From contig JAFGBW010000049.1 of NCBI GenBank assembly GCA_016932965.1, positions 1 to 5,733 of the forward strand: a DNA stretch of 5,733 bases. Reading direction: 5' to 3'. How positions within the stretch are numbered: the first letter of the stretch is position 1; each line of letters begins with the position of its first letter. Below are positions 1 through 5,733 of the stretch, in pieces. The stretch comes from Candidatus Auribacterota bacterium. Its GTDB lineage: Bacteria; Auribacterota; JAFGBW01. The position numbers and the translations under genes were made by a program. Under the pieces are notes generated by a model. It was not told where the DNA came from, made no database searches, and saw nothing but the letters and a program-made list of their open reading frames with translations.

Positions 1-411
1 CTTCTTATGGGTTGGGATATGGATAAGACTATGAAGAAAAGCTTTACGGGCATCATCATCCCTGTTCATTTTTAAATAGATTTCTCCCAGATGAAAAAAA
101 GCGCCTCCCGTGAATTTCGGTTCGCGACTTGATTCGGTGATTTCAAGAAACCACCTCATGGCATCGTCTATGCGGCCGATTTCCTTTGAAAGGGAGGCAA
201 TTCTATATAGTTCGTCTGGACTGGCGGATATCCTTGGTTTTTTCAATAGATCGATTCCCCGGGCGTAGAACTGTTTCCATTCCCCGTCTTCTTCCTCTCT
301 GGCAATGGCACCCAAATGGAAAAAAGCTTCAATTTTCTGTGCTGGTTCAGCGTTATTTGAAGTGATCACGCGTTTGAAATAGGGTTTACTATTGGATCTT
401 TGCCCGTTTTT
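1..411 (-). repeat. TPR cassette at the C-terminus of the methyltransferase protein (incomplete)
   Basis: This part encodes helical repeats with 'AFFHLGAIARE' and, about 75 residues later, 'AFFHLGEIYLK', then 'IPTHKK' at the window edge. The order of motifs (FHLG, 'YRIASLSKEIG', FHLGE, IPxHxK) is the same as in the two glycosyltransferases. TPR repeats normally mediate protein-protein contacts, so the cassette may bring the enzymes together or bind a common partner. That role is inferred. Confidence 0.75.
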
Positions 412-2391
412 AAATAAGACGCAGGCAGTTTGAAAATCTTCAGTGATGTCACCTGAAATAAAAGGCCTGTCACATCGGACCGCATGTCCACCCGGCAATA
501 ATACATAGGGTTCTTTTTTTATGTTAACGGTTTCACAAACCATCCGGTATAAGTTTTTTGCTGATGCGAGGCTTTCAGAGACAAAGGCATCTATTTCTAT
601 CCCTTTATCCTGACTTAAAAAAAGCTGTTTATTTAAAAAGGAATCGGAATAAACATTGCGGACAATGACATGAGGAAATATGTCATAAAATTCTTTCTGT
701 CTTTCAGGTACAATCATCCTTATTTTTTTTCCAAATGCATGAAGTCTATGAATGATATTTAATGCATGATCGGTATCCGATGAAACAAGCAATATGATGG
801 AATCCTTCCTGGCCCACGGGCATGAACAAAGGGTCGTGATTCCAAAGTGTTCGAGTTTCGTTTGTTTTTTGCTGAGGTTTTTCCTGCCTGTAAAACGGAT
901 TTTTTTTACATGAAATAATTTTGAATCATCTGAATCAAGAAGAGTGTCCAGGCAAATCTCCAGGGATGCTATTTTCCCGGATCGGATAGCATAGGAAGTG
1001 GGTATCCATAATTCATTCCAAATGCCGCGAAGGAGTTTTTTGCTGAATATTTTTCTGGAATTAATGCGAACAGAGATTCGCGGTTCGTCGGATTTATCGG
1101 TATAAGGAATCAAAACTGCTATATTGAGGTAAGGCTTTTTGAATTTATCAGCACTAAAAAATAGTCTGCCCCGTTTATAGGCGATTCTGTTTTCGTCTCC
1201 TTTTTTGATCATTTTCCATCCGTTCAGCAGATAAAATCTGGGATGCTGAAAAGAAAGAAGGGGGAGATCAACATATTTTTTGGGAATATGATCAACAAGA
1301 GCTCTGAGAGCCTTTGATTGGTTTTGCAGGGCATGAGTAAATTTTTCCGGAGAGATGAGTTCTTTTTCATTAGATGGGGAGGATGATATAGGCATCGTTT
1401 TGTTTTTTCGTGTTATAATGGCAAGGATGCTTCCGGATTTTGCAGATAAATATTTGACAGCCTCTGATAAAGACCAAGCGTGAAAATGCCTGTTGCCTTC
1501 GGATATTTTGTCAGTAAAAATTCGGATATCCAGATCTTTTTCATATAGTTGAAATATTTGAAAGAAAGAATTAAACGCAGGCGACTGTTCATTTATTCCA
1601 CTCAAAACAGAAGTAGTATTATTGAACATTTCAGCATGTCTTTCCTCCGTCAGATTATCATCGCTGAATGATTCAGAGAGATTCAGAACATACCCTCCGG
1701 ACTTCACCACCCGGAGCATTTCCTGCAATGCCCGTGGAATATCCAATAAATGATGAAGCGCTGCATTGCTGACAATAATATCAAATGATTCATTTTCAAA
1801 TGGCAGGGAATAAGCCGATCCTCCCACCCAGCGGAGGTCCGGAAGATTCCGCCTTCCAATAGCGCACAGAAGGGGATTGTACTCAAGTGAAGTGACATGA
1901 CCTCCGGCGATATGATACTTTAAACTGTCATAACCGTATCCTGCGGCAACATCCAAAATGTTTTTTCCTTGTACGGGAACTAGACTGGTCGCAAGAGTAA
2001 ATGCAATATGCTCATTAAGCCGGTTGTCAAACCAGGATGGTTTTTCTTTTATCCCATACTTATGTAAAATCTGGAGCGGTTCCTGGTTTTGGAAATATTC
2101 GTCAATGATTTGAATCCATTTGCGAAGTTCTGCTTCACCCTCCCGGATATGTTTGGGAATGGCGTATTGATCCGAAACAGCCGCGATTTCAATAAGGCTC
2201 ATGATTTCTGACTCATAAAAAGAACCCAGATAAGGCACTCCATAAAGGACGGAAAAATATTTTCCGCATTGTCTGCAGGTAATCGCTCTTGGATACAACT
2301 GGTTTAATGTAACTATTTTTAGAGTCTGCTCAAGGGATGGGTTTTTACAGACAGGACAGCAAGTATGTGATAAATCAAGATGTTCTTCCAT
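1..2391 (-). CDS. Zinc-ribbon SAM methyltransferase with C-terminal Rossmann-like and TPR domains (3' end missing)
   Basis: The frame is open from ATG at 2391 to base 1: 797 codons with no stop, running off the window. Residues 1-60 look like a Trm112-type zinc ribbon: CPVC (12-15), CRQC (39-42), then a 'GVP' turn (51-53). Residues about 120-245 form a class I methyltransferase: motif I 'ILDVAAGYG' (145-153), acidic E170, 'SFDIIVSNAALHHL' (202-215) and 'VVKSGGYVLNL'. It should transfer a methyl group from S-adenosylmethionine; the acceptor is unknown, probably a glycan or its precursor given the glycosyltransferase neighbours. Residues about 370-500 are beta-rich with no function I can name, about 530-645 are Rossmann-like, and about 660-797 are TPR repeats ending at 'IPTHKK'. 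By comparison with its neighbours the true end is probably only some 10-30 codons away. The start overlaps the upstream stop (TAATG), with AAAGGG nine bases before it, so translation is probably coupled. No signal peptide or membrane segment is evident; likely cytoplasmic. Confidence 0.93.
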   Translation of the reverse strand, partial: MEEHLDLSHTCCPVCKNPSLEQTLKIVTLNQLYPRAITCRQCGKYFSVLYGVPYLGSFYESEIMSLIEIAAVSDQYAIPKHIREGEAELRKWIQIIDEYFQNQEPLQILHKYGIKEKPSWFDNRLNEHIAFTLATSLVPVQGKNILDVAAGYGYDSLKYHIAGGHVTSLEYNPLLCAIGRRNLPDLRWVGGSAYSLPFENESFDIIVSNAALHHLLDIPRALQEMLRVVKSGGYVLNLSESFSDDNLTEERHAEMFNNTTSVLSGINEQSPAFNSFFQIFQLYEKDLDIRIFTDKISEGNRHFHAWSLSEAVKYLSAKSGSILAIITRKNKTMPISSSPSNEKELISPEKFTHALQNQSKALRALVDHIPKKYVDLPLLSFQHPRFYLLNGWKMIKKGDENRIAYKRGRLFFSADKFKKPYLNIAVLIPYTDKSDEPRISVRINSRKIFSKKLLRGIWNELWIPTSYAIRSGKIASLEICLDTLLDSDDSKLFHVKKIRFTGRKNLSKKQTKLEHFGITTLCSCPWARKDSIILLVSSDTDHALNIIHRLHAFGKKIRMIVPERQKEFYDIFPHVIVRNVYSDSFLNKQLFLSQDKGIEIDAFVSESLASAKNLYRMVCETVNIKKEPYVLLPGGHAVRCDRPFISGDITEDFQTACVLFKNGQRSNSKPYFKRVITSNNAEPAQKIEAFFHLGAIAREEEDGEWKQFYARGIDLLKKPRISASPDELYRIASLSKEIGRIDDAMRWFLEITESSREPKFTGGAFFHLGEIYLKMNRDDDARKAFLHSLIHIPTHKK
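454..804 (-). other. Rossmann-like domain in the methyltransferase protein
   Basis: Residues about 530-646 begin with a hydrophobic strand 'DSIILLVSS', continue through a helix to 'KKIRMIVPERQKEFY', and later show 'DAFVSES' and 'PYVLLPGG'. The pattern suggests alternating beta and alpha units, as in the half-domains of GT-B enzymes. The GT2-like protein has a similar layout in the same place before its TPRs. I do not recognise the family and see no catalytic signature. Confidence 0.45.
892..1284 (-). other. Beta-rich domain of unknown function in the methyltransferase protein
   Basis: Residues about 370-500 read as a series of short strands ('FYLLNGWKMI', 'RLFFSA', 'YLNIAVLIPY', 'RISVRIN', 'ELWIPTSYAI', 'SLEICLDTLL', 'LFHVKKIRF'). 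The arrangement of a strand, an acidic turn (DSDDS) and 'VKKIRF' recalls beta-sandwich domains attached to some glycan-active proteins. It might bind sugar, but no binding residues can be named. Confidence 0.35.
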
Positions 2392-2393
2392 TA
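2389..2393 (-). other. TAATG stop/start overlap between two genes
   Basis: The TAA stop of the GT4 gene (2393-2391) and the ATG start of the methyltransferase gene (2391-2389) share one base. Such overlaps normally mean translational coupling, with ribosomes ending the first gene and restarting on the second. It is direct evidence that the two genes share one transcript. Confidence 0.85.
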
Positions 2394-4022
2394 CGGATGA
2401 CCCTTTATCTGATCATTATTTTTAAAAAGAAATAAATATTCTTTGGCTTTTTGATGGCGGGGATTCAGGCTGACACATTTCTTCAGGTGTTGTTTTGATT
2501 TCAAATAATCTTTATGCAGGAAAGCTATTTCTCCCAGGTGGAAATAGACTCCGCATAAGACATTGGGATCATGAATAATTCCAATCAATTTTTTGAATCC
2601 TTTTTCTGCCTTTGAAATCAGACCTGATTTTTTATATAAAGAAAGGACCCTGTAAGCATGAAGAGGATTGAGGTTTTTTCTTTTTTTCAGGATTTTTCCG
2701 CCCAACTGGATATAGATTTTTGCTTTTTCCTGATCGGATGAAAGATATTGTTCCCCTAAATAAAGTAGAAAATAAGGATTAGGTGAATACTTTATCGCGT
2801 CCTCAACAGCCGGCGAAAGCGGCGGATTCTGTCGGTAAGCCAGGCGGTATTGTTTTAATAAGGCACTGTGTTTGTAGTCATGATATGAAACGGGCCGATG
2901 CCGGGCAGGAAGGATGTGATTTCTTAATTGCCTGCAGGTGTTCAGGATGGCGTCACGAACCTCGTCCGCCATTTTGGTCCAGGAATATTGTTTTGCGCGC
3001 TCATATCCTTTCTGAATGAAACAGGATCTTATTTCATGATTTTGTATTTTCAATAATGCTTTTTTCAGGTCAAGCGGGTCAGATGTATCCACATAGAAGG
3101 CTGCGTCTTTGGCTACTTCCGGTATGGAAGAAGTGCGGGTGGTGATAACCGGACATCCGCAGGACATGGCCTCAAGTATCGGCAAACCGAATCCTTCGTA
3201 CTTGGAAGGGTAAACAAGACACTGGGCTCCTGAATAAGCGGCACGGAGTTCTTCATTTCCTAATTTTAATAAATGGATCGGGAACTGCCTTTTAAATTTT
3301 TTGAATTCTGGTTCCAGTTCGCTCAAACCACCTACACATACTGCTTCCATATTTCTGGGTTTAGGCAATAAGGAGAGGGCTTTAAAGAAAAGTTTGCCGT
3401 TTTTATATCCGTATCTTCCGCCGATGAACAGAGAGTAAGGTTTCCGCAGCTTGTATTTGTTTCTGAACTGCTCTCTGCTTTTCGGATTGTCAGGATAAAA
3501 TTCCTCATGATCCACTCCGCACGGGATGGCTTGAACGATTTTTGAATTCAAATGGGGAAAAAAGCGAAGGATATCCTTTGCCGTGTTATCGGATATGGCC
3601 AGATAATAAGAAGAATGCCTCATGGCCTCATGTTTTAATATCCAGACAAGAGAGCTCAGATCATCTCCGGTCATTTCCGGGATCATATCATAGGCAAAAA
3701 ATAATGAGGGTGTCTTGTTCGGGATGGTATAATAGGTGGAAATAAAAAGGTCCGCATTTTCTTCCCGGCATATTTTTTCCAGATTCATTCTGTCATCCAA
3801 ATAAGTTTTATAATCAAAACAGGGAATGATTCTTTTTCTAATATGTTGAAAAGACGGAGCGGTGCCGTTTCTGTCCAGAAGAAGAATATGACGGGCAAAA
3901 GGTGTTTTGCTCCATTCTTTCAAAAGGTTCTTCCATACCCGGGCGATTCCAGTGGCAGGATTCAATTGGAAAAAAATACCGTCAATGAGGATCCGGGGAT
4001 GAATGTAAGAATATTTACGCAT
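2391..4022 (-). CDS. GT4-family (GT-B fold) glycosyltransferase with C-terminal TPR repeats
   Basis: This complete 543-residue protein should transfer a sugar from a nucleotide-sugar donor to a growing glycan in the cytoplasm. The N-terminal GT-B half has 'ILIDGIFF' (11-18) and the loop 'TGIARVWKNLL' (24-34), typical of GT4 acceptor domains. 'YDMIPE' (111-116) sits where many relatives have HDMIPE, and 'AISDNTAKDILRFFP' (142-156) is the usual linker-side motif. The donor half has 'FIGGRYGYKN' (199-208) and the GT4 EX7E signature 'EGFGLPILE' with E276 and E284, then 'CPVITT' and 'SIPEVA'. The GT domain ends near residue 365. A linker leads to TPR-like repeats (about 415-530) with 'VYFHLGEIA' and 'LNPRHQKA', also present in both neighbours. 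TAA lies two codons before the ATG in frame, so no longer ATG-, GTG- or TTG-initiated form is possible. I see no good Shine-Dalgarno sequence, so initiation may be weak or depend on upstream translation. Donor and acceptor sugars cannot be deduced. The family call is firm. Confidence 0.96.
   Translation of the reverse strand: MRKYSYIHPRILIDGIFFQLNPATGIARVWKNLLKEWSKTPFARHILLLDRNGTAPSFQHIRKRIIPCFDYKTYLDDRMNLEKICREENADLFISTYYTIPNKTPSLFFAYDMIPEMTGDDLSSLVWILKHEAMRHSSYYLAISDNTAKDILRFFPHLNSKIVQAIPCGVDHEEFYPDNPKSREQFRNKYKLRKPYSLFIGGRYGYKNGKLFFKALSLLPKPRNMEAVCVGGLSELEPEFKKFKRQFPIHLLKLGNEELRAAYSGAQCLVYPSKYEGFGLPILEAMSCGCPVITTRTSSIPEVAKDAAFYVDTSDPLDLKKALLKIQNHEIRSCFIQKGYERAKQYSWTKMADEVRDAILNTCRQLRNHILPARHRPVSYHDYKHSALLKQYRLAYRQNPPLSPAVEDAIKYSPNPYFLLYLGEQYLSSDQEKAKIYIQLGGKILKKRKNLNPLHAYRVLSLYKKSGLISKAEKGFKKLIGIIHDPNVLCGVYFHLGEIAFLHKDYLKSKQHLKKCVSLNPRHQKAKEYLFLFKNNDQIKGHP
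2401..2406 (-). promoter_or_regulatory. Shine-Dalgarno-like site for the methyltransferase gene
   Basis: On the minus strand AAAGGG lies nine bases before the ATG at 2391. It sits inside the last codons of the glycosyltransferase gene upstream. It is only a partial match to AGGAGG, but it supports ATG 2391 as the start and fits reinitiation at the TAATG overlap. Confidence 0.5.
2433..2780 (-). repeat. TPR cassette at the C-terminus of the GT4 protein
   Basis: Residues about 415-530 carry 'YLLYLGEQYL'-like, 'SLYKKSG', 'VYFHLGEIA' and 'LNPRHQKAKEYL' motifs in the same order as the cassette of the GT2-like protein. From the DP pair before 'GVYFHLGE' to the final 'EYL' I count 24 identical residues out of 46 between the two proteins, without gaps. 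The first repeat is less regular than its counterpart in the upstream gene. Confidence 0.8.
2527..2549. repeat. 23-base near-identical segment shared with 4229-4251
   Basis: Bases 2527-2549 and 4229-4251 match at 22 of 23 positions, with 17 in a row identical (2533-2549 and 4235-4251). A looser copy lies at 80-102 in the methyltransferase gene. All encode the 'FHLGE' helix of the TPR cassette, so this is trace homology between duplicated modules rather than a separate element. Confidence 0.8.
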
Positions 4023-4063
4023 GGACGGTTAACAAATCATTAATAAACATGGAAAAATTGTAG

Positions 4064-4081
4064 ACAGGATTAACTGGATTT
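4064..4081. repeat. Imperfect tandem 9-mer in the 58-base spacer
   Basis: On the plus strand 'acaggatta' (4064-4072) is followed directly by 'actggattt' (4073-4081), two 9-base units differing at two positions. The last base belongs to the stop codon of the upstream gene. From memory, similar 'acaggatta'-type units occur between genes in several environmental bacteria, but I could not search for it here. The rest of the spacer (4023-4063) is AT-rich, with no clear promoter, hairpin terminator or ribosome binding site. Confidence 0.45.
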
Positions 4082-5733
4082 TATTTCGTCTTAGTCGGGA
4101 ATATTGGGTTTAACCTATCTAAAGACAGGTTACTCAGATATTCGCCGGCTTTCTGATGACCGGGATTTAATCTCCTGCATTTTTTAAAATAGCTGAGAGC
4201 GTTGTTGCGACGATCAAGCTGCAGCGCCATTTCACCCAGGTGGAAATAGACCCCGGCACGAATCAAGGGATCCCTAGTTTTTAAAAGCGTTTTTACAAAC
4301 CAGATTTGTGCCTGATCATGTTGTCCGATTTTTTTATATAAAGAGCCTGTCTGATAGATGTCTTCCACGGATGCATTTTTATTGCGGACAAGCAATTCAA
4401 TCGCTTTTTGATAATAAGCTGCCCAGGATTGATCATTCAGATCTCTGGAGATATGACCCAGGTAAAGGTAAGCCCTCTGAGCCAGAGAAGGCGGCACATT
4501 TTTCTGGGAAACAAGTTTTTTATAAAAGGACAGGCTTTCTTTAATCCGATTCTCTTTAAAAGCTGTTTCAGCTTTGATAAGATAATATTGGGCATCCGTG
4601 AAAAGCAGTTTGTCCAGGTTTTCCGGTCCCTTCAGGTGTCCTTTTTTGATGTAGAGACTGTCTGCGGAATTCTTTTTCCCTGAAAGAAAGGATTCAAGAG
4701 TTTCGATGAGTTTGCTGCGGACAGACTCCCTGGGAGAAGGACTGAAATCACCGGTAATAAGACAAGGATAAAAACGGGAATTTTTTTGTACTATTTCGTT
4801 TTCAACACGAGCTCCTTTCATGTCAAATCCAATAATGGATTTTGCTCTGGAACCCAGTGCAAGAAAATCGGAAAAAATATTTCTGGGATAGACGCTATTC
4901 ACGCAATAATCAGCTTGTCGATCTTGAAGCTCATGCAGGAAACGGTTTCTATATTCCGGCTGGTAAAGAAGTTTTTGGCCGTTATAGGAACAGGTGTTAT
5001 TTTCCCACGGCGAATGAAAATAATATTTTGCCTCTTCCTGCGGGCAGACAATAGTTAATTTTATTTTTGGCCATTTTTTGGTGAGAAAGTTGAGCAGGGA
5101 ATGATCCACGATTTTTCCGGAAGAAACGCATATGACTTTTACTGGATTTTTTCGGCTTTTCTTAGTTAAGGGACGGTTCAAGACCGCTGGTTCCGGGACA
5201 GGAAACAATATTTTTTTGTTTTTCGGCCAGTCATCTGCCTTTGCGTTTTCCGTCCAGGGGAGATAATTTTCAAGCCGGACTTCGCCGCGGGACATTTGTA
5301 AGTCATGCCACCCTTTTACGGCGTTTGAAAGGCCGTAATATATTTCCTTGAACCGCACCTGGGGTTCTACAACATATCCATGGTGCTGGAAAACAAGCCC
5401 CATGGAACGGGTTTCATCCCTGGTGAAAGGACGGATTTGCATGAGATCATGTCCCTTTGAATCGATGAGTACAGGAGGCTCATGGGATTGCCATCGCATT
5501 TTTGGCGAATATTTCCATACCCTCATCCAGTCATGGGCTCGTCCGGCCCATGTATTAATGGAAGTGACGTATTTGCGCGGTCCGACTAAATAATGACAGT
5601 AAAATTCAGCTCCTGTTTTTTCAGGATGGAGAAGAAATGCCCTTCGCATTTTCGAGATCTGCCGGGATGACCAGAGTTCATCGCTGTCAAGCTGCCATAG
5701 CAAACAGGGTTCTGAAATATTGGGGAAGGGGGC
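4081..5733 (-). CDS. GT2-like glycosyltransferase with Rossmann-like and TPR domains (5' end missing)
   Basis: The frame is open from the window edge (5733) to TAA at 4083-4081, giving 550 residues; the real start lies outside. A TTG at 5703 could be taken as a start, but it lies inside a conserved strand, so the gene should be read as N-terminally truncated. 'LLWQLDSDELW' (11-21 from the edge) matches the DxD metal and nucleotide-sugar site of GT2 (GT-A) enzymes. That motif usually sits about 85-100 residues into the domain, so roughly that much is missing. The head continues to about residue 150, with 'VFQHHGYV' and 'RFKEIYYG' as in other GT2 proteins that carry TPRs. A linker follows, then a Rossmann-like region (about 197-330, starting 'VKVICVSSG') related by layout to that of the methyltransferase gene. 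TPR repeats cover about 380-535, with 'AYLYLGHISRD', 'SLYKKIG', 'VYFHLGEMA' and 'LNPGHQKA'. It should add a sugar to a surface glycan; the substrate is unknown. No membrane segment is visible in this part. Confidence 0.93.
   Translation of the reverse strand, partial: APFPNISEPCLLWQLDSDELWSSRQISKMRRAFLLHPEKTGAEFYCHYLVGPRKYVTSINTWAGRAHDWMRVWKYSPKMRWQSHEPPVLIDSKGHDLMQIRPFTRDETRSMGLVFQHHGYVVEPQVRFKEIYYGLSNAVKGWHDLQMSRGEVRLENYLPWTENAKADDWPKNKKILFPVPEPAVLNRPLTKKSRKNPVKVICVSSGKIVDHSLLNFLTKKWPKIKLTIVCPQEEAKYYFHSPWENNTCSYNGQKLLYQPEYRNRFLHELQDRQADYCVNSVYPRNIFSDFLALGSRAKSIIGFDMKGARVENEIVQKNSRFYPCLITGDFSPSPRESVRSKLIETLESFLSGKKNSADSLYIKKGHLKGPENLDKLLFTDAQYYLIKAETAFKENRIKESLSFYKKLVSQKNVPPSLAQRAYLYLGHISRDLNDQSWAAYYQKAIELLVRNKNASVEDIYQTGSLYKKIGQHDQAQIWFVKTLLKTRDPLIRAGVYFHLGEMALQLDRRNNALSYFKKCRRLNPGHQKAGEYLSNLSLDRLNPIFPTKTK
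4129..4596 (-). repeat. TPR cassette at the C-terminus of the GT2-like protein
   Basis: This is the most regular of the three cassettes, with about four helical-pair repeats: 'AQYYLIKAETAFKENR', 'AYLYLGHISRD', 'DIYQTGSLYKKIG' and 'VYFHLGEMALQ', closed by 'LNPGHQKAGEYL'. Alternating large and small residues (A, Y, G, A) at TPR positions are easy to see. It lies at the very end of the protein, as in both neighbours. Confidence 0.82.
4229..4251. repeat. Second copy of the 23-base cassette segment
   Basis: This is the partner of 2527-2549, at an offset of exactly 1702 bases. The same offset links a 15-base identical stretch at 2628-2642 and 4330-4344 (encoding SLYKK) and a 21-base stretch with three mismatches starting at 2445 and 4147 (encoding the NPxHQKA end). 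Confidence 0.8.
4744..5145 (-). other. Rossmann-like domain in the GT2-like protein
   Basis: It starts with 'VKVICVSSG', followed by 'WPKIKLTIVCPQEEAKYY', 'ADYCVNSVYP' and 'YPCLITGD'. The opening strand and the 'P.IKLTIV' second strand are faintly like the N-terminal half of GT9-type (ADP-heptose) transferases. This is a resemblance only, and I see no clear donor-binding motif. The counterpart in the methyltransferase gene lies at 454-804. Confidence 0.45.

Follow-up and report, generated by a model that had tools for sequence, protein, structure and literature searches.

In the eukaryotic enzymes OGT and SPINDLY (GT41), a TPR superhelix presents the protein substrate to the glycosyltransferase, and peptides are the typical ligands of TPR grooves. 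The closest described bacterial systems act on flagellin. In Caulobacter, the TPR domain of FlmG by itself binds flagellins, whose modification depends on it (PMC7591256); Maf-1 is described as owing its specificity for flagellin acceptor and site to a C-terminal TPR (Unay et al. 2024, as cited in PMC13317340); and GT2-TPR proteins of Clostridium flagellar glycosylation islands are predicted flagellin transferases (PMC13317340).

The locus described here encodes nine proteins with one kind of TPR tail. FlmG resembles them in joining a TPR domain to a glycosyltransferase in a pseudaminic-acid system, but it is one enzyme in which an N-terminal TPR precedes a GT-B domain, whereas here the head comes first and the tail, mostly C-terminal, occurs on nine proteins including methyltransferases. 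Maf-1 shares the C-terminal position of the TPR; its head, however, is a Maf domain, and a Pfam search found no PF01973 (Maf/MptE-like) in the three proteins studied or in the other tailed proteins. Clostridium GT2-TPR and GT-TPR proteins likewise join TPRs to a glycosyltransferase head and are encoded alongside nonulosonic-acid genes, but are described as individual transferases (PMC13317340), whereas the tail here is common to methyltransferases too; a term search of PMC13317340 found no tail common to both kinds of enzyme. OGT and SPINDLY are single enzymes with N-terminal TPRs and a GT41 head, and the likeness is confined to fold, the tail profile and tail fold matching OGT TPRs at a generic level. 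TPRs at the C-terminus of flagellin glycosyltransferases have been described before; a single tail on consecutive glycosyltransferases and methyltransferases is a new form of this arrangement, the limited open-access literature searched yielding neither such a tail subfamily nor any report joining TPR, glycosyltransferases, FkbM and methyltransferase.

Three consecutive genes with a common tail

The window, that is, the whole stretch of 5,733 bases analysed, is the entire contig C107 of the 3.1-Mb draft genome of an uncultured, flagellated bacterium (300 contigs, 92.6% complete) and holds three genes, all on the minus strand (Table 1). The methyltransferase protein comprises a zinc-ribbon-like N-terminus (CxxC...CxxC), a UbiE-type SAM methyltransferase domain, an unassigned middle region and the TPR tail. 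Together with the Pfam matches, this layout bears out the zinc-ribbon methyltransferase and the GT4 transferase proposed previously from the DNA letters alone (hereafter the sequence-only reading). The GT2-like transferase of the same reading stands in part. Its head, with a QLDSDELW motif close to the start, is about 40% identical to the middle part of proteins from Azospirillum plasmids that carry a glycosyltransferase annotation, but, in a protein that lacks its N-terminus here, it has no Pfam match, Glycos_transf_2 included, and the corresponding Azospirillum region likewise has none. The designation GT2-like is thus plausible, not proven.

Table 1. Features of the window and related loci (positions without prefix are those of the window; contig gene orders are inferred)
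Feature	Position	Strand	Remarks
Methyltransferase protein, 797 aa	1..2391	-	C-terminus cut by contig end; Methyltransf_11 6.5e-18, aa 146-236
SAM methyltransferase domain	1684..1956	-	Pfam Methyltransf_11
Shared TPR tail of methyltransferase (core)	1..324	-	Nine-tail profile; extended four-TPR unit from near 450; last residues on contig C179
GT4-type glycosyltransferase with TPR tail, 543 aa	2391..4022	-	Glycos_transf_1 1.6e-22, aa 184-340
Glycos_transf_1 domain of GT4	3003..3473	-	Pfam
Shared TPR tail of GT4	2430..2765	-	Nine-tail profile and single-query search
GT2-like protein, 550 aa, TPR tail	4081..5733	-	N-terminus on contig C129, ~59 residues missing between
Shared TPR tail of GT2-like protein (core)	4129..4470	-	Profile, model; extended four-TPR unit from about 4620
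C243, gene order			PseB, PseG, formyltransferase-like, deacetylase-like, PseI, PseF, methyltransferase, tailed FkbM protein
C129, gene order			Methyltransferases, epimerase, tailed GT4, tailed Methyltransf_24, tailed 906-aa glycosyltransferase-like protein
Window (C107), gene order			Tailed GT2-like, tailed GT4, tailed methyltransferase
C179, gene order			Tailed GT2, tailed GT2
Second module	L010:3615-5144		C-terminus
Second module	L044:3928-5697		C-terminus
Second module	L044:6018-7523		N-terminus
Second module	L044:7660-9234		C-terminus
Second module	L080:3471-3956		Alone

The last ~115 residues align among all three proteins, and the 24 identities in 46 residues reported for the final part of the GT2-like and GT4 copies proved exact on recounting. 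What had been described as a common C-terminal cassette on three different heads is one TPR subfamily, and the set of its members is larger than had been noted. The length given for it, about 110 residues, agrees with the part aligned in all three but falls short for the GT2-like and methyltransferase proteins, where the unit spans ~150 residues (four TPRs and a cap helix). The middles of these two proteins were also considered as a second shared module (C179, sister genome) and rejected, at an hhalign probability below 1%.

An AlphaFold2 model of the GT2-like tail, computed from four aligned tails, contained nine helices (mean pLDDT 89.6); as modelled, this tail is four TPRs plus a cap helix, and the closest solved structures in the PDB are TPR proteins (Z up to 15.5). 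The TPR_8 score was 35.4 bits for the GT2-like protein (cut-off 25.7) and 26.9 for the methyltransferase. The GT4 tail alone, at 20.7 bits, is below the Pfam TPR cut-offs; it aligns with the other tails and is predicted as helical repeats. In a full-length GT4 model made without an alignment the head did not fold (pLDDT 40) and the tail part alone was usable. The TPR consensus positions G/A8, A20 and P32 are kept in the tails.

Relation to other TPRs of the genome

Each window tail was used singly as a query against the whole genome, and all three recovered the same nine copies. For the GT2 tail, the other eight copies scored 38.6-73.8 bits and the next TPR 22.1; for the GT4 tail, the corresponding scores were 26.4-69.6 and 22.7 bits. 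The methyltransferase tail gave 21.4-64.0 bits against 20.9, the right order with a narrow margin. A profile of the nine sequences placed the nine copies at 108 bits or more and everything else at 29.6 or less, a separation that is partly circular, the profile having been trained on those nine; TPRs are common in these genomes, with 61 matches listed in that search. The single-sequence searches rule out a generic-TPR or chance origin of the likeness. Within the genome the tails resemble one another more than they do any other TPR, so that the outcome named by the sequence-only reading as refuting its proposal did not occur.

Conservation at groove positions

Conservation was compared between 24 distinct tails and 51 generic TPR stretches from the loci examined. 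The structural positions G8, A20 and P32 were alike in both sets. Tail-specific conservation was found in the last repeat at G2 (20/24), [FY]5, H6 (23/24), E9 (16/24), C27 (20/24) and H34 (24/24), and in the penultimate repeat at Y5 and S9 (22/24). In TPRs at large, positions 2, 5, 9, 12, 13, 33 and 34, on the concave face, are the most variable, and in HOP positions 2, 5, 6, 9, 12 and 13 contact the ligand (PMC1261162). The excess conservation of the tails averaged 1.57 bits at groove positions 2, 5, 6, 9, 12, 13, 33 and 34 versus 0.28 elsewhere (rank test, p = 0.0005; p = 0.003 with the published seven positions only); since the columns are not independent and the tails are mutually related, this excess is supporting evidence, not proof. 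C27 is strongly conserved yet not a groove position. Since these concave-face positions are ordinarily the most variable ones in TPRs, their conservation in the tails leads us to infer one common ligand.

These data bear on whether the tail is instead a stabilising C-terminal extension, spread by duplication and recombination in the glycan locus and serving no shared ligand. The abundance of TPRs in these genomes would suit such a spread, as would a tail tree that groups the tails neither by genome nor by head; with 18 of its 29 internal branches unsettled and generic TPRs scattered among the tails, that tree is poorly supported and therefore says nothing firm on duplication versus ancestry. 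The explanation is made improbable by the excess conservation on ligand positions, while many other surface positions vary freely, and by the retention of the tail on heads of quite different folds across two bacterial families.

The surrounding locus

The nine tailed proteins are encoded on contigs C243, C129, C107 and C179, which read as one glycan locus because the reading frames at the contig ends join up; contig order was derived from these frames, not from the assembly. The 48 residues encoded by the final 146 bases of C129 are 68-77% identical to the beginning of a region of the Azospirillum homologues that the GT2-like protein of the window takes up again ~59 residues further on. On its minus strand the window finishes with ...IPTHKK, and the sequence that opens C179 one base later, KEYLVSLQ-stop, is what the methyltransferase tail would be expected to end in. 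C243 at its right end and C129 at its left end share an overlap of 562 bases at 94.5% (L011:7185-7746 / L009:1-561), with a stop in one copy, which would reflect either a strain variant (strain mixture) or a tandem duplication.

Eight of the nine tailed genes are consecutive in this order. Their heads comprise GT4, GT2 and the GT2-like family together with two or three unrelated SAM methyltransferases; the FkbM and 906-aa proteins carry the tail internally, with a further domain behind it. By its profile matches, the locus begins with the pseudaminic-acid genes PseB, PseG, PseI and PseF: PseI (451.7, cut-off 340) and PseF (292, cut-off 206), beside a tailed gene, score above the curated NCBIfam cut-offs, and PseG (147, cut-off 154) and PseB (381, cut-off 408; cut by the fragment used) lie just under them. 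The loci also contain genes of a generic polysaccharide kind, namely epimerases, a GT9 and a PEP mutase accompanied by probable phosphonate genes.

Tails in other genomes

A genome of the sister family (G001) has seven tails, six of them within a single contiguous locus (nonulosonate/phosphonate) that also encodes PseB, PseF, a NeuB/PseI-like synthase and a PEP mutase. One protein of this locus, of 887 aa, has the layout GT2-tail-GT2-tail (L044:13915-16578). The seventh tail makes up most of a 174-aa protein encoded away from glycan genes (L046:6759-7283), possibly a free competitor or adaptor; no such tail-only protein was found in the genome of the window. It qualifies the earlier expectation that the tail would mark only glycan enzymes of one locus, which holds in the window's genome, where all nine copies are confined to one apparent glycan locus together with the pseudaminic genes, but not in the sister genome.

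The sequence-only reading saw in the tail a docking tag that assembles a glycan-building complex, or else a shared partner or substrate-positioning role. A multi-enzyme complex in which the tails bind one another or one scaffold protein is the main alternative to the acceptor docking proposed below; we regard such a complex as possible but unlikely. The same tail on eight consecutive genes and the conserved groove would be expected of such a complex, and in the GT2-tail-GT2-tail protein two heads are physically coupled by nature; however, no dedicated scaffold was identified, the 174-aa protein, absent from the searched genome of the window, lying outside the sister-genome locus. The docking part of the earlier proposal is supported by groove conservation, which favours a common ligand, but recruitment to a protein acceptor fits the FlmG and Maf-1 precedents better than a self-assembled complex does.

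Across the phylum, strong tail matches occurred in 4 of 44 genomes (E 1e-11), and in two other families (G014, G015) tails were found on glycosyltransferases at 47-52 bits. Outside the phylum sample, a four-tail query found only GBS-1 (LEKQ01000007), which, with three relatives, carries one or two tails per genome on glycosyltransferases (56-99 bits). Head and tail matched as whole proteins in three cases: a C243 protein and a 403-aa protein of G001 (25% over 381 aa), a GT2 of C179 and a GT2 of G001 (26% over 453 aa), and the 906-aa protein of C129 and one of GBS-1 (23% over 454 aa). Because some head-tail pairs are common to genomes as whole proteins, these fusions are probably older than the families.

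Further observations concern the gene neighbourhoods. In G001, a PEP mutase-cytidylyltransferase fusion, a TPP enzyme, an iron alcohol dehydrogenase and a sulfatase-fold protein adjoin tails (L045:395-1702, L044:16620-19934), and phosphonate decoration of the glycan of this locus is likely from its gene content. Downstream of flagellin and FliD-like genes, the same genome encodes a GT2-like protein whose TPRs are ordinary and fall outside the tail subfamily (13 bits; L082:11780-12985). In G001 and in the window's genome alike, a Pfam-silent head adjoins, or lies one gene after, the pseudaminic cytidylyltransferase gene (L011:5613-7604, aa 1-300, and L045:9463-10674; 26% identical, 9e-23); tailed in both, it is a candidate nonulosonic-acid transferase family.

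Proposed docking to a common acceptor

Our preferred explanation, which we hold at somewhat short of even confidence, is that the tail serves as a docking module built of TPRs, with a single ligand for all copies, and brings different heads to the same acceptor, most likely flagellin or another secreted protein. In the cytoplasm, each enzyme would grip the acceptor protein by its tail and add a sugar or methyl group; the acceptor would thus be modified in succession by the glycosyltransferases and the methyltransferases of a locus of the pseudaminic-acid type, the latter acting on the bound glycoprotein. Both flagellin as the ligand and the order of enzyme action are suggested by analogy with the known systems.

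Flagellin was present in 11 of 11 genomes tested, including every genome with a strong tail. As it is also found in genomes without strong tails (G002, G007, G021) and the sample consisted of flagellated genomes only, this co-occurrence is weak evidence. The flagellin gene of the window's genome lies away from the tails, on contig C72. Maf-type proteins (PF01973) were detected in 10 of the 11 genomes and may themselves act as flagellin transferases; the two in the window's genome have no such tail by profile search.

A non-protein or membrane-borne acceptor, such as a lipid-linked glycan or export machinery, might instead be held by the tails, the enzymes then acting on a cell-surface polysaccharide. 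The epimerases, GT9 and PEP mutase genes of the loci point in this direction, and the phosphonate genes of the sister locus would suit a surface polysaccharide too. Peptides, however, are what TPR grooves typically bind, the locus starts with pseudaminic genes and all tailed genomes tested are flagellated, which leaves this possibility quite improbable.

Extended to the whole enzyme set, docking to a protein acceptor would mean a transferable TPR tag, with one ligand-binding groove, on at least five catalytic head families, by which a glycan is built and methylated stepwise on one cytoplasmic protein acceptor; this we put forward tentatively, with the balance leaning against it. If true, one reusable tag would bring many different enzymes to a single acceptor in a bacterium. 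The signature G2, [FY]5, H6, E9, C27, P-x-H34 would then offer a way to find acceptor-bound glycan enzymes, methyltransferases included, in uncharacterised genomes, and, if docking is true, the tail could be a ready-made handle in glycoengineering.

A second shared module

The loci with TPR tails also encode a second shared module of ~115 residues that has no Pfam match. It is joined to two GT4s, to a GT9 and to a B12-radical-SAM protein, and occurs on its own as well (Table 1). Leave-one-out profiles recovered every member at 8e-6 to 4e-11, and the profile of the module detected further copies in G002 (2e-18) and G014.
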